64,000 bases of DNA from assembly GCA_947624975.1 (NCBI GenBank), contig CANQMP010000004.1:19956-83955 (forward strand), in the 5' to 3' direction. The stretch comes from Candidatus Gastranaerophilales bacterium (GTDB lineage Bacteria; Cyanobacteriota; Vampirovibrionia; Gastranaerophilales; Gastranaerophilaceae). Made by a program: the position numbers and the translations under genes. The notes beneath the pieces are model-generated. The model saw nothing but the letters and a program-made list of their open reading frames with translations. It had not been told where the DNA came from and searched no databases. Shown here piece by piece: positions 30,449 to 60,673 of the stretch. How positions within the stretch are numbered: position 1 is the stretch's first letter; the number at the start of each line of letters is the position of its first letter.

Positions 30449-30520
30449 GGCGACATGGCCAAGTGGTAAGGCAGAAGCCTGCAAAGCTTTTATCCCCCGG
30501 TTCGAATCCGGGTGTCGCCT
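30449..30520 (+). tRNA. tRNA-Cys (GCA)
   Basis: The acceptor stem GGCGACA pairs with TGTCGCC, and the discriminator base T is usual for tRNA-Cys. The anticodon loop CTGCAAA carries anticodon GCA, and the T-arm GGTTCGAATCC is intact. CCA is not encoded. A T-run follows. It forms the left border of the glycan island. Confidence 0.93.
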
Positions 30521-30670
30521 TTTTTTATTGCTTAAATAAGACTTTTTTATCCTAATCAAATTTGTGTTTACTGTCGTTAATTGAGTAATTAAATATTTCT
30601 ATATTTATTAAACATGCTCAACTTTATCTTTTAACTCTATAACTTGTATATAAATCCCCGACTTTTTATA

Positions 30671-30699
30671 TTGCATAAAAAATATATCCAAGCTATACT
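30671..30699 (+). promoter_or_regulatory. Promoter of the first sialyltransferase-like gene
   Basis: TTGCAT (30671-30676), a 17-base spacer, and TATACT (30694-30699). The ATG follows at 30727. Confidence 0.5.
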
Positions 30700-30726
30700 A
30701 ATGAAAGATAAGAGCAGTTTAGTTTT

Positions 30727-32052
30727 ATGAAAATATTTGCTTTAAAAAAAAGTAATAATTCCTTTTATACACAATATCAAATAACTATTTTTGATATCGT
30801 TATTGCTTATAAACAATTTTCAAAAAATTATAACACCTATTTTAAACAGTTAAAAAAATATAAGGAAAAGAAAAAAGACAATATTACCAGAAGATTATTC
30901 TTAACATCCGGAAATTTAAGTTTAATTAATGCTCTTGCGATTATCAATCAAAAGGGTTTAAATAAAAATAGCGAAAACAGCATTTTAATTTGGTCGCATA
31001 TATCAAATCAGGAATTTGAAGAAGTTTCTACCCAAATCAGCCATTTAACAAAAATAAAAAAACTTTTTAAATTTTGTAATTGTACACTTGATGATTTATT
31101 TAAGTATTTCATAAATAATCATTTAGCTGAATATGATGAGATATATCTTATAAATTGCAGGTATATGTTTTTAATAAAAGATTTTCTTTTTCCGAACATA
31201 AAGTACTATATTTTTGATGAAGGAGTTTGTGTACTCTTTAAACACAAAGGCATTGACTATTCTGATGTCAAAAAATGTTTTTTTATAAAATATTTAGATA
31301 AAATAGATTTTTTAGGAGCTGATAATGAATTAAATGAAAAAATTGAATTTTTAGATAAAAGAGAATTCTTAAAAGTTTCTCAAAGTGCAGCAGAACTTTA
31401 TCCTATTGGTTTGAATTTAAATCCTGAGGACAAAAACATAATTTTATGCGGAACTGGCGAAGGATGTGGCTTTTGGAGTTTTGATGAAATATTTAATTAT
31501 CAAAATAAAATAATAGATGATTTAAATTTACATGGCTATAATGTATTATTTAAACCTCATCCCAGAGATAAATTTAAGTATCAGGAAAAAGAAAATTTCA
31601 GAATTATAAATACAAAGCTACCTCTTGAGTGCTACGATTTAAAAGATAAATGTCTTGCGGTTGTTTCATTATTTTCTTCTGTTTCTGCTCAAATGTATAG
31701 TTTTCATAATATTCCCGGATTTTGTGCACATGGTTTTATAAATGATGTTAAAGATATAGGGATAAAAATTGTAAAATATTATTCACCATCTTATGAAATG
31801 CTTCTTTCAATTGATGTTAAAACAAAAACATTTAATGAAGTTCAGAATGAAATTTTGTCTTTATATACAAACTTTTTAAATAAAAAAACATTAATGTCCC
31901 AAAATAGTGCCTTAGCCAATAACTACGCGCAATTGCCCCCCCCCCCCCCATGCATCTCTGAATCTGAAATACGGGATATTATACATATCAATGAACAAAA
32001 AAATAAAAAAACATTAGTTTTAGGAAGACTAAATCTTTTTTTGGCGGACTAA
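30727..32052 (+). CDS. Sialyltransferase-like glycosyltransferase (GT-B; GT38/GT52-type motifs), paralogue 1
   Basis: 441 residues. The N-terminal half holds RRLFLTSGNLSLINALAIIN (a Rossmann start shared with the paralogues at 50214 and 51550) and Phe-Asp-Glu-Gly at 163-166. The C-terminal half holds FKPHPRDKF with His278-Pro279 and SLFSSVSAQ. D/E-D/E-G, HP and Ser-Ser motifs are the known catalytic/CMP-binding set of GT-B bacterial sialyltransferases. The CMP-sialic acid genes 22 kb downstream support this. A C14 run (31936-31949) encodes a Pro5 stretch before a 28-residue tail absent from the paralogues. One extra C gives a stop after three residues, and one fewer gives another tail of about 22 residues. 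Activity is inferred. Confidence 0.65.
   Translation: MKIFALKKSNNSFYTQYQITIFDIVIAYKQFSKNYNTYFKQLKKYKEKKKDNITRRLFLTSGNLSLINALAIINQKGLNKNSENSILIWSHISNQEFEEVSTQISHLTKIKKLFKFCNCTLDDLFKYFINNHLAEYDEIYLINCRYMFLIKDFLFPNIKYYIFDEGVCVLFKHKGIDYSDVKKCFFIKYLDKIDFLGADNELNEKIEFLDKREFLKVSQSAAELYPIGLNLNPEDKNIILCGTGEGCGFWSFDEIFNYQNKIIDDLNLHGYNVLFKPHPRDKFKYQEKENFRIINTKLPLECYDLKDKCLAVVSLFSSVSAQMYSFHNIPGFCAHGFINDVKDIGIKIVKYYSPSYEMLLSIDVKTKTFNEVQNEILSLYTNFLNKKTLMSQNSALANNYAQLPPPPPCISESEIRDIIHINEQKNKKTLVLGRLNLFLAD
31936..31949 (+). repeat. C14 homopolymer in the 3' part of sialyltransferase-like paralogue 1
   Basis: Fourteen C. In frame as written. Slippage changes only the C-terminal tail (28, about 22 or 3 residues after the Pro run). 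Confidence 0.9.
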
Positions 32053-32065
32053 AGTCCACCCTACA
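32043..32065. repeat. Island palindromic repeat, copy 1
   Basis: GGCGGACTAAAGTCCACC palindrome followed by CTACA, lying between the convergent sialyltransferase-like and GT6 genes. It may also serve as a two-way terminator hairpin. Confidence 0.7.
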
Positions 32066-32067
32066 AA

Positions 32068-32811
32068 CTAATTTCTTAAATAATCGTGCCCGCCGTATTT
32101 CTTACTTGCTTTATCCCTTAATAAAATCCTGATATCATCTTTATAACAGGGTATGTCCCAGCCTTCGGGGTAGCCGTATTTACAAGGTAAAATCCTATAT
32201 TTTCGATTTATAATATATTTGTTTATTTGACTTTCGTCATGCCAAAGCGCTATTACATTATTCTCTAAATCATCATGGATATTTTTGCTCAATTCTTCGC
32301 ATAACTTTAAATATTCTTCACTCAAACCCCCGTTAAATCCTCCCATCACATAGCTAATACCCCCCCCCATGGGAATATATGCTTTTGACTTAGGATTTCT
32401 GTCATAAGTAAATTCTAAATTTGTTTTATCATAAAACCCCGGGTGTTGAGTTACCATAATTCCGCCATGGGCGTATTTATCAGGCAAAATATCTTCTTTA
32501 ATTTCTTTTTCAAAAAGAATATTTGCATTACAAAAGAATAAATAATCATACATTTTAAGCTCATCCTTTTGAGATAAAAACATATCAAAACGCATTAGGG
32601 TATCATAAGGCCAACCGAGTTTTTTTTGATAAATTTTTTTAACTTCTTTTTTGTTGTCGTAGTCAATGTGGTCACTATCTGTAAAAACAAAATAAGATTT
32701 TTTATGCTTTTTTAGAAAATATTTTTCACAAGATTCATAAAAATCTTTCCAAAAAACAGTATATTTTCCTGTACAAATGTAAAGAATTGCTATATTTAAT
32801 TTTTTTGCCAT
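32068..32811 (-). CDS. GT6-family glycosyltransferase (ABO blood-group / alpha-1,3-Gal(NAc) transferase type), phase-variable
   Basis: About 247 residues with the GT6 family layout: NIAILYICTGKYTVFWKDFY at the start, LGWPYDTLMRFDMFL, DYLFFCNANILF (equivalent to the DxD region, here NAN as in other bacterial GT6), HPGFY, RNPKSKAYIP, GGFNGG and ALWHDESQINKYII. GT6 enzymes add alpha-Gal or alpha-GalNAc to fucosylated galactose, making A/B-type antigens. The ATG at 32811 has GGAG eight bases upstream. It overlaps the GT2-GT11 fusion by 16 bases, so the H-antigen step and the A/B step are coupled. A G9 run (32368-32360) codes for part of PMGGG and is in frame (ON). Donor sugar not determinable by eye. 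Confidence 0.82.
   Translation of the reverse strand: MAKKLNIAILYICTGKYTVFWKDFYESCEKYFLKKHKKSYFVFTDSDHIDYDNKKEVKKIYQKKLGWPYDTLMRFDMFLSQKDELKMYDYLFFCNANILFEKEIKEDILPDKYAHGGIMVTQHPGFYDKTNLEFTYDRNPKSKAYIPMGGGISYVMGGFNGGLSEEYLKLCEELSKNIHDDLENNVIALWHDESQINKYIINRKYRILPCKYGYPEGWDIPCYKDDIRILLRDKASKKYGGHDYLRN
32360..32368 (-). repeat. G9 homopolymer inside the GT6 gene
   Basis: Nine G on the coding strand in mid-gene, just before the GGFNGG donor-site loop. Gain or loss of one base would truncate the enzyme before its catalytic C-terminal half. Confidence 0.9.
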
Positions 32812-34598
32812 TTTATTTTTCTCCATTCCAAAGGTATTATTGTGCTACTGTTTTCAACAAAAGGATCAGGAGCTAAAACAACCCCTGAAGTATCTTTTCT
32901 AAGCCATGCTCCCCACCAGCTAAAAGTTGAATTTGCAATAATTGCGTGTTTGCATTGGCTCATTAAATACATATCTTTCCAATCTTCTTTGTTATTATAG
33001 TTATGATTACCAATAAATTCTACAGGCGCATCTATTTTAAATGTATTGAAAAAATCTTCGCAATCAGTTCCAAAAACAAAGAATTCAGGGTTTTTTATAT
33101 TTTTAGATATAAAATCAAGAGCCTTTTTGTAATAATCCCTATTTAATTCCCAGCCCAAATTTAAATAATCCCCCCTTCGTATATGAATAAATACAGGGTT
33201 TTCACAAGATTTTATCTTATTTAAAATATTCAAATTATATTCATCTTGAATATCAGGAAAAGTAAAATCTTTTCTGAGAATATCTTCAATTCCTTCTAAA
33301 TATTTAGAGTTTTGAAAATAACCTTCATAATATATTTTTTTTGAGAGGAATAAATTTTCATCATATTCAAAAGGATTTTTTTCTTGAATAATCTTAGTTT
33401 CATATTTTGCCACTTTGAACATTTTTCTCAAGAAACCAAAAGGCAGAGTTTTTTTCATTTTTTTAGCCTTTTGAATATATTCCAAAGAAGCAAATTTTAT
33501 ATCAGGATTAAAAATTCCGAGTTCATATTTTCTAGCGTACGTTCCGTTAGGCAAAACTCCGTTATGATTAATCTCATTAATTTCATCAAACCAATTTTTA
33601 TCATAAAGAACTTTACAGCGGCATACTTTCCTTAATTTCACTCCGAAAGCATATTGAAACATTTGATTTCCAAGACCGCCATTTAAATTAACTATCTTTT
33701 TAATATAGCAATGGAGGGGGGGCAGTTTATCACTATTTTCAACTATTTCCACCTTTCTTTTAAATTTAATCCCAAATATACATAAAACATTATGCACTTT
33801 ATTATTTGCTGAATATTGTTTTTTTAAAGAAAAGATTTTTTCGATAAATTTATATTTTAGTTTAGTAGTATTATTCGAATTAATACTTTCTCTTATTTTA
33901 TTTTTTATTTCCTCGTTGTCGGTTAAAAAATCAAGCATATTATCCTGAACAATCATACTTGCAGTATAAATTTCAGGTTTTAGAGATAAATTGTCCCCAT
34001 GCAGGCGATATTTTAAAAGAATAGTTGGAAGATTATAAAAATTTAAGTATCTTATGGCTCTTGACCAGAGTTCATAATCCTCACAGCTTAATCCTTCTTT
34101 ATATCTCAAATTATATTTCTTGAAATCCTCTTTTCTGAGCATAACTGCAGGATGTGCCATAAAGCAACCTTTTAAGAAATCAAAATATTTGGGATTTTGT
34201 GGATAACGCCAAATTGCATTTTCTGTCCCGAACACCTCAACTGCACCTCCGACTATTGAATACTCAGGATTATTCTCCAAAAACTCAACTTGGAGTCTAA
34301 ACCTATCGGGAAGAGAAATATCATCGGAATCCATCCTTGCAATATATTCACCCTGAGCAATATCAAAACCGTAATTAAGTGTTTTTACTATACCTTGATG
34401 TTTTAACCTGATATAAGTAACCCTACCCTGAACATCCTTATATTTGTTTATAATTGTTTCAATATTATTTGTAGAACCGTCATCCAATATTAGAAATTCA
34501 AAATCTTTATAAGTTTGATTTAAAATACTTTCAATAGCTTCTTTAAGATATTGTTCATCAGGATTGTAACAAGGCATTATAACTGAAATTCTAGGCAT
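32796..34598 (-). CDS. GT2-GT11 fusion: glycosyltransferase plus alpha-1,2-fucosyltransferase-type domain
   Basis: About 600 residues in two enzymes. Residues 1-280 are a GT2 fold: ISVIMPCYNPDEQYLKEAIE, DDGSTNN, ARMDSDDISLPDRF and CEDYELWSRAIRY. Residues about 300-600 are GT11: VNLNGGLGNQMFQYAFG, VFIHIRRGDYLN (the HxRRGD donor-binding motif) and ANSTFSWWGAWL. The join, after CIFGIKFKRKVEIVENSDK, lies on a C7 run on the coding strand (33722-33716). The GT2 half is closely similar to the free-standing GT2 at 58244-59098. It probably builds a galactosylated or HexNAc unit and then adds alpha-1,2-fucose (H antigen), which the overlapping GT6 could extend. The ATG at 34598 has AGAAAGG upstream; a TTG at 34622 is less likely. 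Confidence 0.85.
   Translation of the reverse strand: MPRISVIMPCYNPDEQYLKEAIESILNQTYKDFEFLILDDGSTNNIETIINKYKDVQGRVTYIRLKHQGIVKTLNYGFDIAQGEYIARMDSDDISLPDRFRLQVEFLENNPEYSIVGGAVEVFGTENAIWRYPQNPKYFDFLKGCFMAHPAVMLRKEDFKKYNLRYKEGLSCEDYELWSRAIRYLNFYNLPTILLKYRLHGDNLSLKPEIYTASMIVQDNMLDFLTDNEEIKNKIRESINSNNTTKLKYKFIEKIFSLKKQYSANNKVHNVLCIFGIKFKRKVEIVENSDKLPPLHCYIKKIVNLNGGLGNQMFQYAFGVKLRKVCRCKVLYDKNWFDEINEINHNGVLPNGTYARKYELGIFNPDIKFASLEYIQKAKKMKKTLPFGFLRKMFKVAKYETKIIQEKNPFEYDENLFLSKKIYYEGYFQNSKYLEGIEDILRKDFTFPDIQDEYNLNILNKIKSCENPVFIHIRRGDYLNLGWELNRDYYKKALDFISKNIKNPEFFVFGTDCEDFFNTFKIDAPVEFIGNHNYNNKEDWKDMYLMSQCKHAIIANSTFSWWGAWLRKDTSGVVLAPDPFVENSSTIIPLEWRKIKWQKN
33716..33722 (+). repeat. G/C homopolymer of 7 at the GT2-GT11 domain junction
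   Basis: Reads as C7 on the coding strand, encoding Leu-Pro-Pro-Leu. It lies exactly where the GT2 domain ends by comparison with the unfused paralogue at 58244-59098. A one-base slip would uncouple the fucosyltransferase domain. Confidence 0.7.
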
Positions 34599-34625
34599 AC
34601 GATAACCAAAACCTTTCTTCAAAAA

Positions 34626-35663
34626 CTAATCTGACGCAGTGCCCCCCATCGATGGTTTAAGGGGAGAAACGGGTTCTTTTTTAACGGGAATACCAAATAC
34701 TTTGTATATTCTTTCCTCATTTTTTATTTTTTCACGATATAAAGTTATATTAAAAACAGATATTTTTTTATCTGATTTTGAAAATTTCACAAAAATTAGA
34801 TAAGGTATTTTAAAAGCAAAGAAATTAGAATAAAAATCACTGTATTTAATTTTTTTGATAATATCTTGCGCCATTTTTTCGTCATATCTTTTTTCAATAT
34901 ATGAAATGGCATCGTTAAGCACGCTTTTATATTGTCTTAACCTTTCTTTTTTGTTTTCTTTTTTAGTCATATTTGAAATCAAAGAATTTTTTCTTTTTCT
35001 ATACATTACAACCGGATCTTCAATGCAAGAAATTTGAGGAAAATTAGAATATATTTTAATAAAAAAGCCTTCATCTTCATGAATTAAATTTTCATCAACA
35101 AATGTAATGTTATTAGATATAAGAAAATCTTTTTTAATCAATCTGCCCCATGCTGTATGATAATTCATATCATAGAATGAATCAAAATTCTCCGGAGTTA
35201 TTTTTAATTTTGCTGCCATATAGGGCTGTTGAAAAAATTCATTTGACTGTTTAACGGAAAGCTTAAATTCCTCATCTACCTCCTGCGTGAATGACCTTAC
35301 TTTTCCTTGAGCAATATCGGTGTTATCCTGCAAGATTTTTCTATACAATTTTTCTAATATATTTTCATCAAATAAATAGTCATCAGAATCTAAAAAGAAA
35401 ATATACTCGCCTGAAGAAGATTTAAGTCCCGTATTTCTTGTTACGGCTAAACCTTTATTTGATTTATGGCAAATTAACTTTATACGGTTGTCTTTTTGCA
35501 TAAAACTTTTTACGATGCTTATAGAATTGTCTTTTGAACAATCATCAACGCAAATTATTTCAAGATTTTTATAGCTTTGCGAAACAACACTTTCAAGGCA
35601 TTGCGCGAGATATTCTTCTACATTATATATTGGAATAATAACGGAAATTTTTGAAGTATTCAT
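34626..35663 (-). CDS. GT2-family glycosyltransferase
   Basis: 345 residues: ISVIIPIYNVEEYLAQCLESV, CVDDCSKDNSISI, GLAVTRNTGLKSSSGEYIFF and LDSDDYLFDE form the GT-A nucleotide-sugar binding fold with its DxD metal motif. The C-terminal part ends with YKVFGIPVKK, a tail motif seen in several island enzymes. GGAGG precedes the ATG. A G6 run lies nine bases from the end (34647-34642), so slippage alters only the last residues. Its ATG overlaps the stop (ATGA) of the alternative long form of the upstream GT2 at 35796. The sugar is unknown. Confidence 0.82.
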   Translation of the reverse strand: MNTSKISVIIPIYNVEEYLAQCLESVVSQSYKNLEIICVDDCSKDNSISIVKSFMQKDNRIKLICHKSNKGLAVTRNTGLKSSSGEYIFFLDSDDYLFDENILEKLYRKILQDNTDIAQGKVRSFTQEVDEEFKLSVKQSNEFFQQPYMAAKLKITPENFDSFYDMNYHTAWGRLIKKDFLISNNITFVDENLIHEDEGFFIKIYSNFPQISCIEDPVVMYRKRKNSLISNMTKKENKKERLRQYKSVLNDAISYIEKRYDEKMAQDIIKKIKYSDFYSNFFAFKIPYLIFVKFSKSDKKISVFNITLYREKIKNEERIYKVFGIPVKKEPVSPLKPSMGGTASD

Positions 35664-35795: not shown

Positions 35796-36683
35796 TTAGG
35801 CGACATTTTGCCCCCCCCCCATCAGGGCAAAGAATACAAAGGAGAGTAAAAAGCCGACTATTAAAACAAATTCGACAATCACCGCGATAAGAAGAATATT
35901 AAAGAGTTTTTTATATTTCTTGCTTCTTCTTTTAATTTTTTTGAAATCAACAAAGCTTGAATCCAAAAAGGCATCTGTAAACTTTTTATTATTTAAATAA
36001 GTTTTAATGTGATGAGAAAGAATTAAAAATTTTATTAAATCAATATTTTTATCATGAATATGAGTTCTGCAAGCTTCATCACCCAATTTGCGATAATGAT
36101 ATAGAACTTCATTTATTTTATAAAACTTGAATCCTTTTTCAAAAAATGTAATCCATAATTCCCAGTCCTCACAACCGATATCATTAAGCCATTTTTTATA
36201 TCCACCTATTTCTTCAAAATGTTTTTTTCTAAACATTGAGGAAGATATTAAACAATTAAAATATAAGATTTTTTCTTCATCAAAATTACAATATATGTCA
36301 TAATTTTCTGCTTGAAAATATTTAACATCACAATAGACAACAGAATATTCCGGATTGTCATCAAGTGCGCGGACAAATTTTTCAATATAAGTTTCATCAA
36401 GGATATCATCGGCATCAAAAGGAAGAATGTACTCTCCTTTAGCCATGTTAATTAATTTATTTCTTGCTGCACAAACTCCGATATTCTCTTTTTCATTAAT
36501 ATAAATAATTTCGGGATGGTCTTTTATTATTTCTTGAATAATATCCGCACTTTTATCTTCAGATGCATCGTTTAATACTAAAATCTCAATATCTTTATAT
36601 GTTTGTTTAAAAACAGACTCAAGTGCTTCTTTAACATACTTCTCTTTATTATAGACAGGTATGACAACTGATACTTTAACCAT
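35796..36683 (-). CDS. GT2-family glycosyltransferase with C-terminal membrane helix and phase-variable tail
   Basis: 295 residues as written: VSVVIPVYNKEKYVKEALES, VLNDASEDKS, NIGVCAARNKLI and FDADDILDETY form the GT2 core. The C-terminal helix IVEFVLIVGFLLSFVFFALM probably anchors it to the membrane. A G10 run (35820-35811) right after this helix gives a short ending (GGGQNVA). With 9 or 12 G the frame stays open for 49 more codons and stops at 35660, overlapping the next GT2's ATG as ATGA. A close paralogue with its own poly-G end is at 57263-58129. A -10 box six bases before the ATG suggests leaderless expression. Confidence 0.85.
   Translation of the reverse strand: MVKVSVVIPVYNKEKYVKEALESVFKQTYKDIEILVLNDASEDKSADIIQEIIKDHPEIIYINEKENIGVCAARNKLINMAKGEYILPFDADDILDETYIEKFVRALDDNPEYSVVYCDVKYFQAENYDIYCNFDEEKILYFNCLISSSMFRKKHFEEIGGYKKWLNDIGCEDWELWITFFEKGFKFYKINEVLYHYRKLGDEACRTHIHDKNIDLIKFLILSHHIKTYLNNKKFTDAFLDSSFVDFKKIKRRSKKYKKLFNILLIAVIVEFVLIVGFLLSFVFFALMGGGQNVA
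35811..35820 (-). repeat. G10 homopolymer controlling the C-terminal tail of a GT2
   Basis: G10 on the coding strand gives the short tail. 9 or 12 G give a 49-residue extension to 35660 that is translationally coupled to the next glycosyltransferase. 11 G give an intermediate tail. Confidence 0.9.
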
Positions 36684-36901: not shown

Positions 36902-37843
36902 TTAATGTGTTAAATTGTTGCAAAAATCTTCATAAACCTTTTTTATACCCTCTTTAAGAGAAGTTTTTGCCTTAAAACCTAAAGAATTTATTTTTGAAAT
37001 ATCCATAACTTTTCTCATAGTGCCATCCGGCTTTGTTTTATCAAAAACTATCTTACCTTTGTAACCGACTACTTCTTTTATTAAATCAGCGAGTTCTGAT
37101 ATTGAAATTTCTTCCCCTGTACCGATGTTAATTATTTCCCCTATATCTTTTGCTGTTTTATTTTCCATAAGATATACAACTGCACGCGCTAAATCACCTG
37201 CGAACATAAATTCCCTTAAAGGTTTTCCGCTTCCCCAAACCGTAACGGATTCCGCGTTTGAAACTTTTGCATCATGAAATCTTTTCAAAAGCATTGGAAG
37301 AACGTGGGCGTTTTGTTCATGATAATTATCATTAAAACCATACAAATTGCAAGGCATCACAGATATAAAATCAGTGCCATATTCTCTATTATAAGCATCA
37401 CACAGCTTTAATCCGCCAATTTTAGCCAATGCGTACATTTCATTTGTTTTTTCAAGTTTTGAAGAAAGTAAATATTCTTCCTTTAAAGGTTGCGGAGCGT
37501 TTTTGGGATATATACAACTGGAACCCAAAAATAACAGCTTTTTAACATTATATTTATAGGAATTTTCAATAACATTAAGCTGAATTTTCATATTTTCTGT
37601 AAAAAATTCAACAGGATATGTATTATTAGCATATATTCCCCCTACTTTAGCCGCAGCAAGAATAACATAATCGGGTTTATTTATTGAAAAAAATTCACTA
37701 ACGGCAAAAGAGTCGGATAAATCAAGTTCTTTATGACCTTTAAGAATTAAATTGTTATAACCTTTTTCTTTTAATTCTTTTGTTATCGCAGAACCGACAA
37801 GCCCCTTATATCCCGCAACAAATATTTTATCATGTTTTTTCAT
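36902..37843 (-). CDS. fcl: GDP-L-fucose synthase
   Basis: 313 residues, an extended short-chain dehydrogenase. IFVAGYKGLVGSAI is the NADPH-binding glycine motif, GSSCIYP and YALAKIGG supply the Ser-Tyr-Lys catalytic triad, and PCNLYGFNDNYHEQNAHVLP is the GDP-sugar site of the family. It carries out the epimerase-reductase step from GDP-4-keto-6-deoxymannose to GDP-L-fucose. Its ATG overlaps the stop of gmd (TAATG), with GGAG upstream. It provides donor for the GT10 and GT11 fucosyltransferases on either side. Confidence 0.95.
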   Translation of the reverse strand: MKKHDKIFVAGYKGLVGSAITKELKEKGYNNLILKGHKELDLSDSFAVSEFFSINKPDYVILAAAKVGGIYANNTYPVEFFTENMKIQLNVIENSYKYNVKKLLFLGSSCIYPKNAPQPLKEEYLLSSKLEKTNEMYALAKIGGLKLCDAYNREYGTDFISVMPCNLYGFNDNYHEQNAHVLPMLLKRFHDAKVSNAESVTVWGSGKPLREFMFAGDLARAVVYLMENKTAKDIGEIINIGTGEEISISELADLIKEVVGYKGKIVFDKTKPDGTMRKVMDISKINSLGFKAKTSLKEGIKKVYEDFCNNLTH

Positions 37844-38928: not shown

Positions 38929-39023
38929 ATCATTCACAACCTATTTTGTATTTTATCTTCATTTAAATAATAACACAAACATTTAAAATGCACATTGTGT
39001 TAAAAACTGTTTTTGGGTAGACT

Positions 39024-39085: not shown

Positions 39086-39099
39086 TTAATATTTTTTCA
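39086..39099 (+). promoter_or_regulatory. Extended -10 promoter, leaderless GT10 transcript
   Basis: TGTTAATAT (TAATAT at 39086-39091) ends seven bases before the ATG at 39099, with no ribosome-binding site between. Confidence 0.45.
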
Positions 39100-48828: not shown

Positions 48829-48895
48829 GTAACTTTCCTGCTGATATATTATATCAATAAACAATAAATTATTGCAAGAAAATTCAAAAAGTAAA

Positions 48896-51459: not shown

Positions 51460-51549
51460 CAAAAAAAGGACTTTATTAAATTCTATTTTTTTGTTTATAT
51501 TATTATAATCATGAGATAGTTTATATTTAAAAACTTGGAGATATTTATA

Positions 51550-52818: not shown

Positions 52819-52879
52819 ATTAATTTGAAGCAAATGTAAAATTTTCTTGCAAGCAAAGCCAGGTTGTCGTAGAATAATA

Positions 52880-53560: not shown

Positions 53561-54578
53561 AATATTTATTGTAGCGGAAATAGGCTGTAATCATAACGGG
53601 GATTATGAACTTGCCCGTAAAATGGTTTTAAAAGCCAAGGAATGCGGAGTCGATGGGGTTAAATTTCAAACTTTTAATGCTGAGTCTTTGATATCCCGCT
53701 ATGCCCCCAAAGCGCCTTATCAAAAAATTACAACAGGAACAAATGATTCTCAACTGGAAATGACTAAAAAACTGGAACTAAAAGGTGACGAGTATTTAAA
53801 ACTTAAAGAATATGCTCTAAGCCTTGGACTTGTTGTTTTTTCAACTCCTTTTGATTTAAAATCAGTTGATTTTTTGTATCAAAACGGACAAAGTATTTGG
53901 AAAATTCCATCAGGTGAAATAACCAATCTGCCGTATTTAGAAAAAATCGGCTCGCTTGAATGTAAAAATAAACAAATTATTTTATCAACGGGTATGGCAA
54001 ATATTGAAGAAATAAAAACTGCAGTTGACATATTAATTAAAAACGGCACAAAAGAAGATGAAATCACGCTTCTTCATTGCACTACACAGTATCCTGCAGA
54101 AGATTATGAAATAAATCTCGGGGCAATAAATGATTTAAAAAGTAATTTTCCAGCCTTTAAAATCGGCTTTTCTGATCATTCAAAAGGATATATTGCCGCA
54201 ATAGGTGCAGCTGCAATAGGTGTTTGTATGATAGAAAAACATTTTACACTTGATAAAAATATGCAGGGCCCTGATCATAAAGCTTCTGCAAATCCTCAAG
54301 AATTAATGCTTCTTTGCGAAAATGTAAGACGAATTGAAAAAATGCGAGGCTCAGGGAAAAAAGTTGTTACATCTTCCGAGGAAAAGAATAAAATTGCTGC
54401 AAGAAAGTCTATTGTGGCAAAATGCGATATAAAAAAAGGTGAAATACTTACAGCGGAAAATATTACTGTAAAACGCCCCGGTAACGGTATTAGTCCTATG
54501 AACTGGTATAAAATATTAGGTAAAATTGCCCAACGTGATTTTAAAGAAGATGAACTTATCACAATGGAGTGCTTTTAA
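53553..54578 (+). CDS. neuB: N-acetylneuraminate (sialic acid) synthase
   Basis: 341 residues. IFIVAEIGCNHNGDYELARK, GVDGVKFQTFNAESLIS, FSTPFDLKSVDFL, IPSGEITNLPYLEKIG, LLHCTTQYPAEDYEINLGAI and GFSDHSKGYIAAIGAAAIG trace the NeuB TIM barrel. The SAF/antifreeze-like C-terminal domain (IVAKCDIKKGEILTAENI, KRPGNGISP) is complete. It condenses ManNAc with phosphoenolpyruvate. Legionaminic- or pseudaminic-acid synthases are similar, but the neighbouring NeuC without other nonulosonate genes favours Neu5Ac. The ATG at 53553 overlaps neuD. Confidence 0.93.
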   Translation: MSEIFIVAEIGCNHNGDYELARKMVLKAKECGVDGVKFQTFNAESLISRYAPKAPYQKITTGTNDSQLEMTKKLELKGDEYLKLKEYALSLGLVVFSTPFDLKSVDFLYQNGQSIWKIPSGEITNLPYLEKIGSLECKNKQIILSTGMANIEEIKTAVDILIKNGTKEDEITLLHCTTQYPAEDYEINLGAINDLKSNFPAFKIGFSDHSKGYIAAIGAAAIGVCMIEKHFTLDKNMQGPDHKASANPQELMLLCENVRRIEKMRGSGKKVVTSSEEKNKIAARKSIVAKCDIKKGEILTAENITVKRPGNGISPMNWYKILGKIAQRDFKEDELITMECF

Positions 54579-55297
54579 TGCTTATTAAGTATTATTGTTA
54601 TACAATTTGGAATCTGTTTATACAAAATTTATCACGTCTGATTTTCGTATCGGGGGGGGGTAAAATGAAAGATTCTTTTATTCAAAAAATGAGTATAAAA
54701 AAAAGTTTTGTTATTAAAGAAACGGTCAAAAAAATAATAAAAGATAAAATGCCAATACTGAAAAATACTGAAAATGATACTAATACCGTTTGCCTTATAG
54801 GGCATTCACAATTCCATAAATGGGATATAAAGGAACTATTTGGGTTAAAAGTTAGAAATTGCGGAGTAAACGGCATTTCCATGGTTGAGTATAGAGAGCA
54901 GATTTTAGAAAAAAATCTCTTAAAATGTAATTCCAAAATATATATAATTTTTGGCGGAACAAACGATATAGTATATGACAGAACCCCGCAGCAAATATTG
55001 GAAGAGTTAAAAATACTGGTTAAATACATAAAATCTAATGATAATAACTCTAATATATACTATATTGAAACACTAAATATCAATGGAAGATATGACAGAG
55101 ATAATAAAACCATAAATGAGCTTAATTCATATATTAAGGAAAATTTTCCGCAAGGTATAAAATATATTCCCGCAAATGAAATGAATGATGAAAACGGTAA
55201 TTTAAAAGAAAGTTATACTGTTGACGGACTTCATTTAAGTAAGTTAGGTTATGAAAAATTAAAAGAAATATTGGAAAAAAATATATGCAAAAATTAA
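54578..55297 (+). CDS. SGNH/GDSL hydrolase within the neu operon, probable sialate O-acetylesterase, phase-variable
   Basis: About 239 residues. VCLIGHSQFHKW (block I with nucleophile Ser in G-H-S), NCGVNGIS (block II Gly), IIFGGTNDI (block III Asn) and TVDGLHLSKLGYEKL (block V Asp and His) define an SGNH hydrolase. In Escherichia coli NeuA an SGNH esterase domain is fused to the CMP-sialate synthetase; here it stands alone just before neuA. A G9 run (54652-54660) follows an N-terminal hydrophobic segment and is in frame from the ATG at 54578. An ATG at 54664 just after the run could give a shorter form. It overlaps neuB (TAATG) and neuA (13 bases). Confidence 0.82.
   Translation: MLIKYYCYTIWNLFIQNLSRLIFVSGGGKMKDSFIQKMSIKKSFVIKETVKKIIKDKMPILKNTENDTNTVCLIGHSQFHKWDIKELFGLKVRNCGVNGISMVEYREQILEKNLLKCNSKIYIIFGGTNDIVYDRTPQQILEELKILVKYIKSNDNNSNIYYIETLNINGRYDRDNKTINELNSYIKENFPQGIKYIPANEMNDENGNLKESYTVDGLHLSKLGYEKLKEILEKNICKN
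54652..54660 (+). repeat. G9 homopolymer in the SGNH hydrolase gene (ON)
   Basis: ATC-G9-TAAAATG. In frame from 54578. The run sits three bases (TAAA less the start A) before an internal ATG, so it could also act as a purine-rich ribosome site for the short form. Confidence 0.85.
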
Positions 55298-55980
55298 AAA
55301 AGACAGCAATAATCCCGGCACGTTCCGGGTCAAAGGGGTTAAAAGATAAGAATATAACAGACCTATGCTCAAAACCGTTAATCGCATATTCAATAGAAGC
55401 GGCACTTAAAAGCGGTGAATTTGAGAAAGTTATTGTTTCAACGGATTCTGAAAAATATTCTGATATTTCAAAAAAATACGGAGCCGATGTCTTAATTCGT
55501 CCTAATGAACTTGCACAAGATAGTACTCCGACTTTTGATGTTGCAAAAGATTTTATAGAAAAAACAAAAGAAATAAATGCCGATTATTTTGTACTGCTCC
55601 AGCCAACATCTCCTTTAAGAAACGCAAATCATATAAAAGAAGCAATTGAACTTTTTGAACAAAATTATGATAAGTTTGATTTTCTTTCTTCCGTGACAAA
55701 AGCACATCATCCTGCTGTCCTTGTTCATCCTTTAGGTGAAAATAATTCAATGAAATATTTTGATATTGATTATTCAAAATACAGAAGACAGAATTATAAA
55801 GACTATACTCCTAATGGTGCTATTTATATTGCTAAAATAAAAGAATACTTAATCCAAAAGCATTTTTACGGGGCAAAAAGTATTGCATATATTATGGATG
55901 AGATATCTTCAGTTGATATTGATAATATAATTGATTTGGAACTTGTAAAAATAATAAAGGAAAAATATATTAATGACTAA
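55285..55980 (+). CDS. neuA: CMP-sialic acid synthetase
   Basis: 231 residues. TAIIPARSGSKGLKDKN is the CTP-binding signature of this family, and KPLIAYSIEAAL, VIVSTDSEKYSDI, LLQPTSPLRNANHI, the YRRQNYKDYTPNGAIYIAKI segment and a closing DIDNIIDLELVK agree throughout. It makes CMP-Neu5Ac, the donor for sialyltransferases. The length equals the synthetase domain alone; the esterase domain found in some NeuA proteins is replaced by the separate upstream gene. Overlaps neuC by 8 bases. Confidence 0.94.
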   Translation: MQKLKKTAIIPARSGSKGLKDKNITDLCSKPLIAYSIEAALKSGEFEKVIVSTDSEKYSDISKKYGADVLIRPNELAQDSTPTFDVAKDFIEKTKEINADYFVLLQPTSPLRNANHIKEAIELFEQNYDKFDFLSSVTKAHHPAVLVHPLGENNSMKYFDIDYSKYRRQNYKDYTPNGAIYIAKIKEYLIQKHFYGAKSIAYIMDEISSVDIDNIIDLELVKIIKEKYIND

Positions 55981-57121
55981 GAAAATAATATATATAACAG
56001 GTTCACGTGCAGATTACGGAATAGTCAGAAGATATTTAAAACTCTTAAATGACGATAGAACAATTGATTTAAGCATAATTGCAACAGGTGCTTTGTTATC
56101 AAACGAATACGGACATCAGGTTGATTTAATAAAAAAAGACGGATTTAAAATTGATACTGAAATTGAAATTCCTCTTAATTCAAAAAAAGTATCGGATACT
56201 ATAAAAACAATGTCGGTTGCACTTGATAGAGCAGGTGAATGGTTTGAAAATAACAAATATGACCTTGTAATACTATTGGGCGACAGATTTGAAATAATGT
56301 CTTTTGCAATAGCAGCAGCGATGCAAAAACTTCCGATACTCCACCTGCACGGAGGCGAAGCAACTTATGCAAATTATGATGAATTTATCCGCCACGCCAT
56401 TACAAAAATGAGCCTTTATCATTTTGCTTCTTGTGAAGAATATGCAAAAAGAATAATTCAGCTTGGAGAAAATCCGAATAATGTATTTAATTTGGGGGCA
56501 TTAGGTGCTGAAAACTGTATGTTTATTGAAGAAAATAATGTGCCAAGTAATATAAAAGGGCTAGAAAATTATTTTACGGTGCTTTTTCATCCTGAAACCC
56601 TTACTAATGTAAATCAATTAGAGCAGGTAAATAATCTTTTAAGTGCCATAGATGAATTTAAAAAATATAACTTTATCTTTTTAGGAACAAACGCTGATAC
56701 CTATTCAGATGTTATAAGAAACAGAATAAAAGATTATGTAAAGAATAACTCTAATACAAAATATATAGAAAATCTGCCTACGGCGGGATATCATTATTTA
56801 TTAAAAAATTCAATATGTTTAATAGGAAATTCATCATCCGGAATTATAGAAGCTCCTTCTTTAGGTGTTTATACTGTAAATATAGGCGACAGACAAAAAG
56901 GAAGAATAAAAGGAAACAGTGTAATTGACACAAAATGTAACCGTGAAGACATAATTCAAGCAATTTTAACGGTAATTAAAAATGCAAAGAATATTAAACC
57001 GATAAACCCATACTTCAAACCAAATACTGCTGACGGGTATTACAAAAAGACTATCGAACTCTTGGAAAGACTAAGTGAAGATATCAAAGAACCAAAAATA
57101 TTTTACGATTTATTGTTTTAA
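55973..57121 (+). CDS. neuC: UDP-N-acetylglucosamine 2-epimerase (hydrolysing), NeuC type
   Basis: 382 residues. IIYITGSRADYGIVRRYLKL, LVILLGDRFEIMSFAIAAA, ILHLHGGEATYANYDEFIRH, LFHPETLTN and LIGNSSSGIIEAPSLGVYTV are the GT-B-like epimerase motifs. The protein releases ManNAc from UDP-GlcNAc, feeding NeuB. Relatives that act on diacetyl-bacillosamine (legionaminic pathway) are close, so substrate is inferred from context. It ends the operon and is followed by decayed palindromic repeats. Confidence 0.92.
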   Translation: MTKKIIYITGSRADYGIVRRYLKLLNDDRTIDLSIIATGALLSNEYGHQVDLIKKDGFKIDTEIEIPLNSKKVSDTIKTMSVALDRAGEWFENNKYDLVILLGDRFEIMSFAIAAAMQKLPILHLHGGEATYANYDEFIRHAITKMSLYHFASCEEYAKRIIQLGENPNNVFNLGALGAENCMFIEENNVPSNIKGLENYFTVLFHPETLTNVNQLEQVNNLLSAIDEFKKYNFIFLGTNADTYSDVIRNRIKDYVKNNSNTKYIENLPTAGYHYLLKNSICLIGNSSSGIIEAPSLGVYTVNIGDRQKGRIKGNSVIDTKCNREDIIQAILTVIKNAKNIKPINPYFKPNTADGYYKKTIELLERLSEDIKEPKIFYDLLF

Positions 57122-57262: not shown

Positions 57263-57263
57263 A
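57246..57263 (+). promoter_or_regulatory. Extended -10 promoter, leaderless GT2 transcript
   Basis: TGTGGTAAAAT (TAAAAT at 57251-57256) ends six bases before the ATG at 57263. The spacing is the same as upstream of its paralogue at 36683. Confidence 0.55.
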
Positions 57264-58129
57264 TGGCAAAAGTTTCTGTAGTTATTCCCGTTTATAATAA
57301 AGAGAAATATGTAAAAGAAGCAATTCAGTCTGTTTTAAATCAGACATATAAAAATATTGAAATACTTGTTTTAAATGACGCTTCGACGGATAAAAGCAAA
57401 GAAATTATTTTAGAAATTATAGAAAAACATCCTGAAATAATCTTTATTGATGAAAAAGAGAATATCGGTGTTTGTGCAGCAAGAAATAAATTAATTGACA
57501 TGGCTAAAGGTGAGTACATTTTGCCATTTGATGCAGACGACATAATTGACAAAACTTATGTTGAAAAATTTGCGAAAGCTTTGGATGAAAATCCGGAATA
57601 TTCTGTTGTATATTGTGATGTTAAACGTTTTCAAGCGGAAAACAAATATAAATACTATAATATGAATTATGAAGATATTATTTACACTAATTTTGTAATT
57701 TCAAGTTCAATGTTTAGAAAAACTGATTTTTATCAAGCAGGATGTTATAAAGAGTGGCTCAATGATATTGGCTGTGAGGACTGGGAATTATGGATTTCAT
57801 TTACAAAAAAGGGTTTCAAGTTTTACAAGATCAACGAAGTTCTTTATTTTTATCGCGTGCTGGGCTCAGAACCATGCATGACGCAGATTTTCAAAAAAAA
57901 TATCAGATTAATAAGATATTTGATATTTAAACATCATACTTCATTATACTTGCAAAGCCGAAAATTTATTGACATCATCTCGGATGAAGATTTCTTTCGT
58001 TTCTCAAAATTTAAGCAAAATTATAAAAAGTATAAAAGATTATTTAATATATTTTTATCAATTTCAGTTGTAGAATTTATCGTATGTATAACTATGCTTG
58101 TTTCTCGCATCGGGGGGGGGGGGGGGTAA
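57263..58129 (+). CDS. GT2-family glycosyltransferase with C-terminal helix and poly-G end
   Basis: 288 residues, a close paralogue of the GT2 at 35796-36683: VSVVIPVYNKEKYVKEAIQS, LNDASTDKS, NIGVCAARNKLI, FDADDIIDKTY and DIGCEDWELWISFTKKGFKF. The C-terminal helix IFLSISVVEFIVCITMLV leads into SRI and then a G15 run (58112-58126) that codes Gly5 and stops. With 14 G the tail gains about 15 residues, and with 13 or 16 G about 18 others. The catalytic domain is unaffected in every phase, so the tract tunes only the tail, unless it affects expression of the GT2 downstream. Confidence 0.83.
   Translation: MAKVSVVIPVYNKEKYVKEAIQSVLNQTYKNIEILVLNDASTDKSKEIILEIIEKHPEIIFIDEKENIGVCAARNKLIDMAKGEYILPFDADDIIDKTYVEKFAKALDENPEYSVVYCDVKRFQAENKYKYYNMNYEDIIYTNFVISSSMFRKTDFYQAGCYKEWLNDIGCEDWELWISFTKKGFKFYKINEVLYFYRVLGSEPCMTQIFKKNIRLIRYLIFKHHTSLYLQSRKFIDIISDEDFFRFSKFKQNYKKYKRLFNIFLSISVVEFIVCITMLVSRIGGGGG
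58112..58126 (+). repeat. G15 homopolymer at the 3' end of a GT2 gene
   Basis: ATC-G15-TAAATG. In the written phase the tract is followed at once by a TAA stop. It shares the ATCG..TAAA flanks with the tract at 54652. Confidence 0.9.
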
Positions 58130-58243: not shown

Positions 58244-59098
58244 ATGCCAAAAATTTCAGTAGTAATACCTGTATATAATCCGAATAAAGAATGGTTCAAG
58301 CAAGCTGTGGAGAGTATTCTTAAACAAACATACAGTGACTTTGAGTTAATAATAGCTGATGACGGTTCAAATAAAGATATTGAGGCACTAATCAGGAGTT
58401 TTAATGATTCAAGAATAAAACACTTAAAGTTACCACACAGAGGTATTGCATCAACCCTTAATTCCGGTTTTGATGCTGCAAAAGGCACATATATCGCAAG
58501 AATGGATGCTGATGATATTGCTTTGCCTGATAGATTTAAAATTCAGGTTAAATTTTTAGATGAAAATCCTGAATATTCTATTGTTGGAAGTAATATAAAA
58601 GTATTTGGAAATTACTCTGATGTATGTAAATATCCTCAAAACCCGAAATATTTTGATTTTTTGCGCGGATGTTGTATGGCACATCCGTCAGTTATGTTGC
58701 GTCGGGAAGATTTTGATAAGTATAACCTGAGATACCGGACAGATATTCTCTGTGAAGATTATGAGTTATGGTCAAGAGCTATAAGAGTATTGAAATTTCA
58801 TAATATACCAAAAGTTTTATTAAAATACCGTATCCATGGGAAAAATTTATCTTTAAATAACTCTATGAAGAAATCAGATTATATTGTGCGTTCAAACATG
58901 ATTAATTATCTTACTAATGATGAGAAAGAAAAACAATTTATAGATGATTTAATTAAACTCAGAAAATACAATTTATGGCAAACAATCTTTTCATTAAGAA
59001 ATGAAAAGACTTCTACAAAAAGTCATAAAATAATTTGTATATTTGGTATTAAATTTAAAATAAAGGTACGGAATACTGCCACTGAAACAATTGAGTAA
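58244..59098 (+). CDS. GT2-family glycosyltransferase
   Basis: 284 residues: ISVVIPVYNPNKEWFKQAVE, LIIADDGSNKD, ARMDADDIALPDRFKIQVKF, YPQNPKYFDFLRGCCMAHPS and CEDYELWSRAIRVLKF. It is highly similar to the GT2 half of the GT2-GT11 fusion at 32796-34598, including the tail motif IICIFGIKFKIK. It probably transfers the same or a related sugar and represents the unfused ancestor or a duplicate. GGAG lies ten bases before the ATG. A 114-base gap after the poly-G GT2 shows no other gene. Confidence 0.85.
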   Translation: MPKISVVIPVYNPNKEWFKQAVESILKQTYSDFELIIADDGSNKDIEALIRSFNDSRIKHLKLPHRGIASTLNSGFDAAKGTYIARMDADDIALPDRFKIQVKFLDENPEYSIVGSNIKVFGNYSDVCKYPQNPKYFDFLRGCCMAHPSVMLRREDFDKYNLRYRTDILCEDYELWSRAIRVLKFHNIPKVLLKYRIHGKNLSLNNSMKKSDYIVRSNMINYLTNDEKEKQFIDDLIKLRKYNLWQTIFSLRNEKTSTKSHKIICIFGIKFKIKVRNTATETIE

Positions 59099-59233
59099 AA
59101 ATTATATTTTTTTAGAAGAATTTTAATGTTTCTAGCTGGGATATTACCGCTTCTCATTTGTAATTTGCTCTGCTTATTACAAATATCTTCCACTTCCGCA
59201 AAGGAAACGGAAATTTTTCCTTCGAAAACATAA

Positions 59234-60023
59234 TTAATCACATTTGTGTTTGCCGTTCCAGGTAAGCTCATCTGCACAACGGAGGTAATCCATGTTTTCA
59301 AAATAAATTACCCATGCCGCACAGTTCCAGCCTTCCTGTTTAGGATTGCAAGCTGCATAAAATGATGATGATGTATCACTCGGGTCAACACCTATGCCAT
59401 CTGCTCCAAATTTGTTATTATTATAGACGGCGAAGTTAAAGATATCTTTTCCAATAGTATTAGGACCTTGTTGACCGTTTATGTCCGTCAATATACAAAT
59501 AATTCGGTCTTTAATATTTTCTCTGAATGATAATTCCGTTCCGTCAGCAAGTTTCAACTTATAATCATTGGAGTAATATTTAGAGTCATAAAGTTTACCA
59601 TTCAAAGTATAAAAATGCCCGCCTCTGATACTGTAATTTTCACAGTCATTTACCCCGCAGTCGTCAGCTAATTTGAGAAACTGTTTTATTTTAGGTGCTG
59701 CATTAACAGCCGGTTTTCCATGCTCGGCAAGCTCCCAGCTTTCGGGTGAGCCGTATTCGGTTGTGGCTTGCAAAACTGCTTGTGAAAGCACTGAATAAAC
59801 TTTTTTCAACTTTGTAACGGTAGCTTTTTCCTGATACTTTTGGATAAGTGTCGGTATTGTTAAAGCTGCAACTACACCGATGACAGCGAGGGTTATTAAG
59901 ACCTCCGCCAAAGTGAAGGCAAAATTTTTGGTTTTTAAGGTTAGATTGTCCTTAAAATCCTTGCTAGGAGCAAAATCCCCCCCCCCCCGATGGGTTTAAC
60001 GCACTAATAGTAATCTTCTTCAT
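59234..60023 (-). pseudogene. Type IV pilin-like protein, phase-variable and OFF (frameshift at G12 in the leader)
   Basis: The body NFAFTLAEVLITLAVIGVVA is a classic pilin N-terminal helix, but no good start exists in that frame downstream of the tract. The proper start is the ATG at 60023 (AGAAAGGA upstream, as at 19023): MKKITISALNPS, then the poly-G run (59988-59977), then DFAPSKDFKDNLTLKTKNFA before FTLAEV. With 11 or 14 G these join into a protein of about 262 residues with an unusually long leader; with 12 G translation hits TAA soon after. The body resembles the pilin at 19023 (same N-terminal helix, Cys-rich, ending in a similar W-x-x-x-x-x-N-M-x-Y). It lies at the right edge of the island. 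Confidence 0.85.
59977..59988 (-). repeat. G12 homopolymer, pilin-like switch (OFF)
   Basis: ATC-G12-ATTTTGCTCC on the coding strand. The pilin frame needs GAT-TTT-GCT after the run, hence 11 or 14 G. Confidence 0.92.
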
Positions 60024-60179
60024 GTCATTTGTCCTTTCTATTTTTTACACATTCTCATTATAACCGATTTTTCAAAAAATGCAAGGGGGGAAGTTAAAAT
60101 TTTTTAAAAAATTTTAAAAATTCTTAATGAAAATATAGTGAAAAGTGAGAGGTTCTTTTAGGCACTGCGTGCAAATTAT

Positions 60180-60292
60180 TTAACCCATCCTAACCGAAAT
60201 TTCTAAATTCGCATGGCTCATTAAGAAATTTCCCTCTCACGGAACAATTCACCGGATTGTTCCGCTCGGCAGAGTCTTGAAAAGGGAAGGAA
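60180..60292 (-). repeat. Dispersed intergenic repeat, copy 2
   Basis: Nearly identical in reverse orientation to 19905-20016, including the palindrome around GGAACAATTCACCGGATTGTTCC. The two inverted copies lie about 40 kb apart and could support inversion by homologous recombination. Confidence 0.8.
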
Positions 60293-60395
60293 CTAAAGTG
60301 TAAGTTGGAGGAGGGAGTCAATAAGCTGGATTGCTTCGCATTCGCTCGCAATGACAGACAATTTTCCCTGCTCAAAGAATCTTATCGAGCTAAAG

Positions 60396-60557
60396 CCAAA
60401 ATCATGCACAAAAAAAAAGCCTTCGAAAAGACTCTCTTATTTGTCCGATACGTGACTCGCTTGAGCCGTGCACGAGCAGTGGCTCAGGATGCCCTTTAGG
60501 ATACGTTTGTTTGCGACAACGAGAGCAAACAAACAGGGTGAGAGGAACTATCGCCCA
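60396..60557 (-). pseudogene. Decayed tRNA-Val copy interrupted by hairpin-forming sequence
   Basis: 60396-60459 matches 60555-60618 at about 60 of 64 positions. It covers the tRNA-Val 3' end plus its terminator, but its acceptor strand is mutated (TCCGAT for GGCGAT). At 60557-60550 (minus) there is a GGGCGATAG, like the tRNA 5' end. The middle of the tRNA is replaced by about 85 bases with two hairpins. It looks like a tandem tRNA duplicate broken by an insertion or by recombination at an attachment site. Confidence 0.5.
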
Positions 60558-60568
60558 AAATCATGCAC

Positions 60569-60590
60569 AAAAAAAGAGCCTTCAAAAAGA
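60569..60590 (-). terminator. Terminator after tRNA-Val
   Basis: On the minus strand, GAGTC..GGCTC stem followed by seven T, about ten bases beyond the tRNA 3' end. Confidence 0.6.
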
Positions 60591-60600
60591 CTCTCTTATT

Positions 60601-60673
60601 TGGGCGATACGTGACTCGAACACGTGACCTCCACAACGTCAATGTGATGCGCTACCAACTGTGCTAATCGCCC
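60601..60673 (-). tRNA. tRNA-Val (GAC)
   Basis: On the minus strand the acceptor stem GGGCGAT pairs with ATCGCCC and the discriminator base is A. The anticodon loop TTGACGT gives anticodon GAC, with CACA/TGTG in the stem. The T-arm CACGTGTTCGAGTCACGT is intact. CCA is not encoded. It forms the right border of the glycan island, next to gcvPA. Confidence 0.92.

Follow-up and report, generated by a model that had tools for sequence, protein, structure and literature searches.

We analyzed a 64,000-nucleotide stretch of DNA from a Candidatus Gastranaerophilales genome (hereafter the window), in which two transfer RNA (tRNA) genes enclose a set of genes predicted to act on fucosylated, blood-group-type, and sialylated glycans, with long runs of G or C in or beside them. 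ARAGORN placed a tRNA-Cys gene at 30449 to 30520 on the plus strand and a tRNA-Val gene at 60601 to 60673 on the minus strand. These form the left and right borders of what we call the island and coincide with the ends of the interval put forward in an original prediction for this DNA. The 30,080 bp between the two tRNA genes have a G+C content of 29.0%, compared to 37.1% in the left flank and 39.4% in the right flank. Protein families were assigned by a Pfam scan of 30 open reading frames (ORFs) and, for the subset submitted to it, by NCBIfam. The enzymes named in the prediction (Gmd, Fcl, NeuD, NeuB, NeuA, NeuC, and glycosyltransferases of families GT6, GT11, and GT10) were all recovered by Pfam and some also by NCBIfam. 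Its figure of four GT2 or GT2-like enzymes was too low, as we found six GT2 domains, and its inventory lacked a broken deacetylase gene, an acyltransferase, a hexapeptide transferase, a GDSL hydrolase, and an acyl module described below. The proposed Melainabacteria-like lineage agreed with our comparisons, in which most of the nearest named relatives were Candidatus Gastranaerophilales.

Eleven G/C runs of at least nine bases are present in the window (lengths 9, 9, 10, 11, 11, 12, 12, 13, 14, 15, and 15), the number and range originally claimed. All lie between positions 31936 and 59988, and no G or C run of this length occurs elsewhere in the 64 kb. They comprise 43 overlapping G9 words, compared to a mean of 0.00 in 100 dinucleotide-preserving shuffles. 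The runs had been described as lying in or beside glycan genes, which is true of ten of them; the eleventh (59977 to 59988) falls in the leader of a prepilin-like gene. As assembled, seven of the eleven tract-bearing genes read in a single frame, three are broken at the tract (the deacetylase, the second sialyltransferase-like gene, and the prepilin-like gene), and in the GDSL hydrolase gene the tract lies just 5′ of an in-frame ATG. Four of the ten glycan tracts are at or near gene ends (GT10, the first sialyltransferase-like gene, and two GT2 genes). Runs recur at the same place in homologues of the deacetylase, GDSL, sialyltransferase, and GT10 genes, and for three tracts (deacetylase, GDSL hydrolase, and GT10) length or frame differs between copies of the gene.

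The GT6 gene (32068 to 32826, minus strand) encodes an ABO-type glycosyltransferase of the metal-independent NAN type and carries a nine-base C tract in frame (32360 to 32368). Its product is 51% identical to BoGT6a of Bacteroides ovatus over 237 aligned residues and keeps the NAN form of the NXN motif together with 11 of 11 checked residues, which were chosen from the substrate residues described for BoGT6a in the available part of the source (PMC3961637). The same portion of that paper describes A-antigen-like products for BoGT6a (PMC3961637). This comparison supports the predicted A-antigen-type chemistry and the ABO-type assignment made at the outset. Unlike BoGT6a, the GT6 of the window has a nine-base G/C run in the loop before the YVMGGF motif, and we found no phase-variable GT6 in the part of the matching literature covered (titles and abstract starts). 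The adjoining gene (32796 to 34622, minus strand) encodes a GT2-GT11 fusion by Pfam, the GT11 part being presumably of the α-1,2-fucosyltransferase family; a seven-base run at 33716 to 33722 lies between the domains, and a length change there would part the two.

Two GT2 genes follow on the minus strand (34626 to 35663, by Pfam, and 35796 to 36683), the second with a 10-base C tract (35811 to 35820) covering codons 288 to 291 of 295. Beyond them are fcl (36902 to 37843, minus strand), for a guanosine diphosphate (GDP)-fucose synthase-like epimerase recognized by Pfam, and gmd (37843 to 38937, minus strand), for a GDP-mannose 4,6-dehydratase that scored 575 bits against an NCBIfam equivalog cut-off of 415. 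The plus-strand GT10 gene (39099 to 40055) encodes an α-1,3/4-fucosyltransferase-like protein whose nearest solved relative is the α-1,3-fucosyltransferase 2nzw, which we take to be from Helicobacter pylori. As in the H. pylori Lewis fucosyltransferases, a C run lies inside the gene. The H. pylori run is near the gene start, whereas the 13-base run of the window (40006 to 40018) is near the C terminus, at codons 303 to 307 of 318. The proline run that it encodes is found at the same place, followed by other tails, in homologues with 83, 71, and 65% identity, and is shorter in a partial protein with 93% identity. It is not universal, being absent in four of eight aligned homologues, the four more distant ones.

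The sialyl half of the island includes three genes for sialyltransferase-like proteins (PF07388), the number first proposed, one of which proved to be broken at its tract. The first (30727 to 32052, plus strand) has a 14-base C tract (31936 to 31949) at codons 404 to 408 of 441. The second (50214 to 51459, plus strand) is in two pieces, with the frame lost at a 12-base G tract (50829 to 50840), and the third (51535 to 52818, plus strand) has an 11-base G tract in frame (52200 to 52210). The family passed its Pfam cut-off, and a structure model of the third protein, for which sequence search gave no solved relative, has the GT-B fold, with a bacterial polysialyltransferase as the best VIA-align match. 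Downstream on the plus strand are genes for a NeuD-type acetyltransferase (52847 to 53560; Pfam and NCBIfam), the N-acetylneuraminate synthase NeuB (53472 to 54578), a GDSL/SGNH hydrolase (54569 to 55297) with a nine-base G tract (54652 to 54660) four bases 5′ of an in-frame ATG, a NeuA-type cytidylyltransferase (55285 to 55980; Pfam), and NeuC, a hydrolysing uridine diphosphate (UDP)-N-acetylglucosamine 2-epimerase (55973 to 57121). They are followed by two plus-strand GT2 genes, at 57263 to 58129, where a 15-base G tract (58112 to 58126) makes up the last codons, and at 58244 to 59098 (Pfam).

The donor sugars originally predicted were upheld for the enzymes that could be placed most firmly, namely Gmd, NeuB (458.4 bits, cut-off 399.65), and NeuC (402.1 bits, cut-off 235.9), so that both equivalogs expected of an N-acetylneuraminic acid (Neu5Ac) pathway were found. 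NeuA passed no NCBIfam cut-off; its best model was PseF (168, cut-off 206), and the nearest solved structure to NeuC is a GDP/UDP-N,N′-diacetylbacillosamine 2-epimerase. Because of these two matches, a different nonulosonic acid is possible, of the legionaminic or pseudaminic type instead of Neu5Ac. We consider this rather unlikely, since NeuB passes the Neu5Ac synthase cut-off and scores 274 against a PseI cut-off of 340, NeuC passes its own cut-off, the solved chain nearest to NeuA is a cytidine monophosphate (CMP)-Neu5Ac synthetase (6ifd), Gmd scores 111 against a LegB cut-off of 475, and no aminotransferase family was found in the 30 Pfam-scanned ORFs, the rest of the genome not having been searched.

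Between the fucose and sialic acid genes lies a group of modification genes. On the minus strand are a gene for a protein without a Pfam or NCBIfam match (40116 to 41072; mean predicted local distance difference test of the model 34), with an 87% identical counterpart in the corresponding module of G257, a genome from another genus of the same family; a 4′-phosphopantetheinyl transferase (PPTase) gene (41065 to 41610; Pfam); and a GT2-like gene (41618 to 42757) with a 15-base C tract (42738 to 42752) just after the start codon. A hexapeptide acyltransferase-like gene (42884 to 43678; Pfam) is on the plus strand. The minus strand then carries genes for lipoate-protein ligase A (LplA; 43662 to 44633; Pfam), E1-β-like (44630 to 45634; Pfam and NCBIfam) and E1-α-like (45624 to 46514; Pfam, NCBIfam, and tree) subunits, an acyl carrier protein (ACP)-like protein (46507 to 46743; Pfam 20.4 bits, slightly below the cut-off of 20.8), and an E2-like lipoyl/acyltransferase (46740 to 47861). 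The polysaccharide deacetylase gene (47849 to 48864, minus strand) is in two pieces (47849 to 48622 and 48613 to 48864), its frame broken at an 11-base C tract (48642 to 48652), and is followed by a PF01757 acyltransferase gene (48896 to 50011, minus strand; Pfam).

A canonical pyruvate or acetoin dehydrogenase complex was considered for the E1/E2 genes and rejected. The NCBIfam pyruvate dehydrogenase cut-offs were missed by E1-α (176.9, cut-off 393.85), E1-β (158.9, cut-off 321), and E2 (100.8, cut-off 722), and no E3 (lpdA) gene was found among the 30 scanned ORFs, an ACP gene standing in its place, whereas the canonical controls do have lpdA. E1-α is 53% identical to a protein from a Paenibacillus and 43% to one from a Streptomyces cluster of the nonribosomal peptide synthetase/polyketide synthase (NRPS/PKS) type, and 45% identical to RenH of the renieramycin plasmid, compared to 32 to 34% for the canonical-type enzymes. 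In a tree, the three canonical rows split off at 100/100, with the caveat that long branches meet there and that the four NRPS/PKS rows do not form one clade. The ACP, E1-α, and E1-β genes have the same order and overlaps in the Paenibacillus and Streptomyces clusters. The E2 motif is HRVING in the window and HRVxNG in those clusters, where two canonical enzymes have HRVIDG; the HRVxNG pattern was not found in RenI. No NRPS or PKS gene is present among the scanned window ORFs. The module thus comprises ACP, E1-α, E1-β, E2, and PPTase genes, with an E1-α set apart from the canonical enzymes, and with LplA it resembles NRPS/PKS starter-unit enzymes and not pyruvate dehydrogenase.

In its available part, a study of scleric acid lists these five components, of similar sizes, for the QncN/QncL/QncM and SclQ1-4/SclP glycolic-acyl-ACP modules; for QncN/L/M it cites a role in making a C2 glycolic-acyl unit and attaching it (PMC6335953). 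We likened the modules by these descriptions and not by Qnc or Scl sequences; the module of the window differs in lying within a glycan island and in having its own LplA. From this likeness and that of the NRPS/PKS modules, an acyl-ACP (glycolyl or acetyl) is predicted for the acyltransferases of the island, and the glycan may bear a group of an unusual kind, perhaps glycolyl.

In G257, a collinear block corresponds to the sialyl/acyl half of the island. Its first part contains neuC-neuA-GDSL-neuB-neuD, three sialyltransferase genes, the acyltransferase gene, and the deacetylase gene, and continues with E2-ACP-E1a-E1b and then the lplA, hexapeptide, GT2-like, and PPTase genes and the gene for the unassigned protein. 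Over the main aligned segments, fifteen of its proteins are 75 to 91% identical to those of the window; the acyltransferase is 50% and the sialyltransferases are 42 to 50% identical. GcvPA, the single core protein compared, is 55% identical between the two genomes, and because the fifteen proteins are so much closer than this, we infer that the sialyl/acyl block moved between genera. Within the E1/E2 module of G257 we also observed genes for an AlgX-like protein and an MBOAT acyltransferase (L182:14123-17260), absent at the corresponding place in the window, which would fit O-acylation of an exported glycan.

Several tracts could be followed between these copies. The GDSL tract is at the same place in both, with 9 bases in the window and 11 in G257. 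One G257 sialyltransferase gene has a tract at the site matching sialyltransferase-like genes 2 and 3 of the window. The deacetylase tract is also at the same place in G257 with another length, and there the frame is open over 323 residues. In addition, a database protein of 326 residues (P0241; longest contig 4,564 bases) reads as one deacetylase chain, agreeing with the downstream piece of the window gene at 257 of 257 residues and with the upstream piece as far as the tract, and looks like the same gene in the open state. Tract-encoded residues vary among database proteins as well. Slippage switching, as first proposed, is supported by these observations, in which tract lengths at matching sites differ in a relative and a gene broken in the window is intact elsewhere. 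The GT6 of a further genus (G202) has an in-frame 13-base run about 12 residues past the site in the window, an offset that suggests an independent origin.

Beyond the sialyl/acyl half found in G257, the search of related genomes that had been proposed showed the cassette to be rare and patchy, since GT6 is present in 4 of 194 genomes of the class, E1-α (E ≤ 1e-50) in 2 of 117 genomes of the family, and a relative of the third sialyltransferase in 8 of 60 genomes (the own genome included in each case). A contig scan of genomes with this sialyltransferase as the query gave no relative. A GcvPA query returned 80 loci, from which we used the closest 46 (L100 to L145), the other 34 having at most 43% identity. 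In 13 of the 46, all Candidatus Gastranaerophilales, tRNA-Val and tRNA-Cys genes are paired near gcvPA with a gap of 10 to 1983 bp, so that the shifted composition of the window lies between tRNA genes that adjoin in relatives. A simple insertion between rpoC and gcvPA was rejected, because the relatives compared lack rpoC just past the tRNA pair; as they keep the two tRNA genes together without rpoC just beyond, insertion and rearrangement are both needed. In three relatives (L105, L106, and L145), tRNA-Val lies about 8.5 to 10 kb from gcvPA with other genes between, and the gcvPA/tRNA-Val site may have been rearranged often.

The prepilin-like gene at the right end of the island (59234 to 60023, minus strand) has a start codon, a leader, a 12-base C tract (59977 to 59988) out of frame, and an N-methylation motif, and belongs to a larger set. 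The genome contains 74 runs following a non-G base and 79 preceding one, hence at least 79 tracts, of which 76 were fetched. As most of them lie elsewhere, we rejected the view that tracts are peculiar to this island. At least 36 of the 76 (30 complete and 6 cut by contig ends; L033 to L083) are of a prepilin-leader type in which a start codon 35 bases upstream is followed by the run and an FTLAEVLITL-type motif; the run is in frame in 6 of the complete ones and out of frame in 24. A prepilin peptidase is present in the genome, and the switchable repertoire of prepilin-like genes may exceed that of the glycan island. Flagella and type IV pili are mentioned for the lineage in the available part of PMC5877343. 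Among 28 further tract sites outside the window, 20 have a scanned ORF, 14 of these belonging to glycosyltransferase, nucleotide-sugar, FkbM, TupA, or pyruvyl-transferase families and the other six being a methyltransferase, a DUF4422 protein, a HAD protein, a KAS III protein, an adjacent DAHP synthase, and one without a match. The longest of the 76 runs is a 26-base G run in a GT-D glycosyltransferase gene (L058:2404-2429).

Prepilin leaders with tracts seem not to be confined to this species. Of the 17 tracts in the 46 gcvPA loci of relatives, 10 precede a prepilin motif, compared to 6 among at most 3,000 randomly chosen places, and we noted that these leaders (L101 to L136) differ in sequence. 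Within the genus, 27 of 32 other genomes have 11 to 176 pattern matches and five have 0 to 9; 159 of 191 genomes of the family have at least one match, and 22 genomes from other families of the order have 0 to 6. The wide range in the genus (0 to 176), together with the 8 of 28 non-prepilin sites outside the window that have no adjoining ORF of at least 100 residues, would be expected if tracts were passive, G runs accumulating under weak slippage control while the broken genes decay. This is very improbable in our view, as no such runs arose by chance in the shuffles, the tracts are concentrated in two gene classes and occupy matching positions in genes from another genus, the GT6 of G202 has a run of its own, and the broken deacetylase gene has an intact, otherwise matching copy.

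Eleven of the 76 fetched tracts are no farther than 100 bp from the end of a contig, compared to 0.47 expected, as when assemblers fail at homopolymers, and the length differences might then be sequencing or assembly errors. Ten of these eleven are of the prepilin type (the other, in L038, has no leader), and assemblies break at repeated leaders as well; for the same reason, we rejected the enrichment at contig ends as proof of switching. In the deacetylase gene, the two genomes with different tract lengths also differ in whether the frame is open or broken, and residues encoded by tracts vary in database proteins too, making error quite an improbable explanation.

We consider it probable that the locus is a mobile glycan-decoration island under poly-G phase variation, with a bank of slippage switches that randomly vary surface glycans of the fucosylated, blood-group-A-like, and sialylated types. 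Replication slippage, to which the tracts point, would alter run length. At runs early or midway in a gene (deacetylase, sialyltransferases 2 and 3, GT2-like, and GT6), it would move the gene in or out of frame, and at 3′-end runs (GT10, sialyltransferase 1, and two GT2s) it would swap the protein tail. Gmd and Fcl are predicted to supply GDP-fucose, and NeuC, NeuB, and NeuA a CMP-sialic acid. GT11 followed by GT6 would build an H-then-A-type epitope, GT10 would add α-1,3/4-fucose, the sialyltransferases would add sialic acid caps, and the E1/E2/ACP module would supply an acyl group to the acyltransferases. The products would be attached to a core made elsewhere in the genome, as neither polymerase nor flippase was found among the 30 ORFs scanned; LpxC is present in the genome, along with one O-antigen-ligase-like gene (window positions 9194 to 10522).

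Several points weigh against this interpretation. Both the acceptors and the surface display of the island glycans are predicted, and, as noted above, the NeuA and NeuC matches leave room for another nonulosonic acid. For the model of the third sialyltransferase, Foldseek ranks epimerases and other GT-B proteins above sialyltransferases. Switching at gene-end tracts may have little effect. Length differences were observed between assembled genomes and database proteins, and switching within a population is predicted from them; no run is present in the GT2-like gene of G257 or in two deacetylase homologues (P0244 and P0246); and the source mark of P0241 is that of a window-encoded protein, yet no single window ORF yields it, and some gene callers bridge frameshifts. 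As to mobility, the rpoC side showed no synteny in the 18 relatives' loci compared, no integrase family was found among the 30 Pfam-scanned ORFs, and no duplication of a tRNA end of at least 15 bases is present in the window.

By the sequence tests available, the island is a member of the homopolymer contingency loci known from Campylobacter, Helicobacter, and Neisseria. As in the lipooligosaccharide and capsule loci of Campylobacter jejuni, the G/C homopolymers are in glycan genes, and the available part of PMC8355987 ties four phase-variable genes to ganglioside mimicry. The island differs in belonging to another phylum and in combining an ABO-type GT6 with fucosyl and sialyl genes in a single island. 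The genome has at least 79 tracts, compared to 18 to 39 phase-variable genes per C. jejuni strain and more than 50 in two Campylobacter species in the available portions of the literature, and its runs are longer (9 to 15 bases in the window and once 26 elsewhere) than the mainly G9 to G10 of C. jejuni. Neisseria, in the sources as available, likewise has slippage in glycan and pilus-related genes, whereas here at least 36 separate prepilin-like genes each have a run in their own leader.

Host mimicry is a plausible function of the island, and a fair inference because of the enzyme set. It is possible, although short of probable, that the switches are kept chiefly to evade phages that bind glycans or pili, perhaps also bacterial competitors, with the likeness to the host incidental. 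Phages commonly use pili and surface glycans as receptors, and the same type of tract is found in at least 36 prepilin-like leaders. Phase variation in surviving phage attack is described for Campylobacter in the available parts of PMC8355987 and PMC6625227. Phage evasion accounts for the presence of tracts in both glycan and pilin genes about as well as host mimicry does; against it, an enzyme set that would make vertebrate-type epitopes (GT6 with GT11, GT10, and NeuC/B) appears to go beyond the needs of phage escape. More speculatively, and in our judgment unlikely, a QncNLM-like module has been recruited to transfer ACP-loaded glycolyl onto sialic acid or glycan, giving a de novo, switchable N-glycolylneuraminic acid-like or glycolylated sialoglycan alongside the at least 36 switchable pilin-like proteins.

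In agreement with the original prediction, which knew of no report of such a locus in this lineage, we found none in the titles and abstract starts of the searchable literature, a scope that leaves out most subscription papers and all bioRxiv preprints. Within that scope, novelty lies in the lineage and the scale, in the combination of enzymes, in tracts that appear to move along with their cassette, and in an acyl module of the natural-product type. Poly-G contingency loci are best documented in pathogens such as Campylobacter, Helicobacter, and Neisseria. The same switching logic would operate here in a gut lineage beside the cyanobacteria and on a larger scale, with at least 79 tracts in this genome and up to 176 pattern matches in the genus, and the cassette apparently travels between genera with its tracts. 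From the ACP-linked module follows a chemical prediction that is precise and open to testing: a bacterial glycan should bear an unusual acyl group. If the proposed interpretation is true, commensals, besides pathogens, would show the gut randomly varied blood-group-, Lewis-, and sialyl-type glycans, with a bearing on anti-glycan antibodies, lectin targeting, and phage choice.

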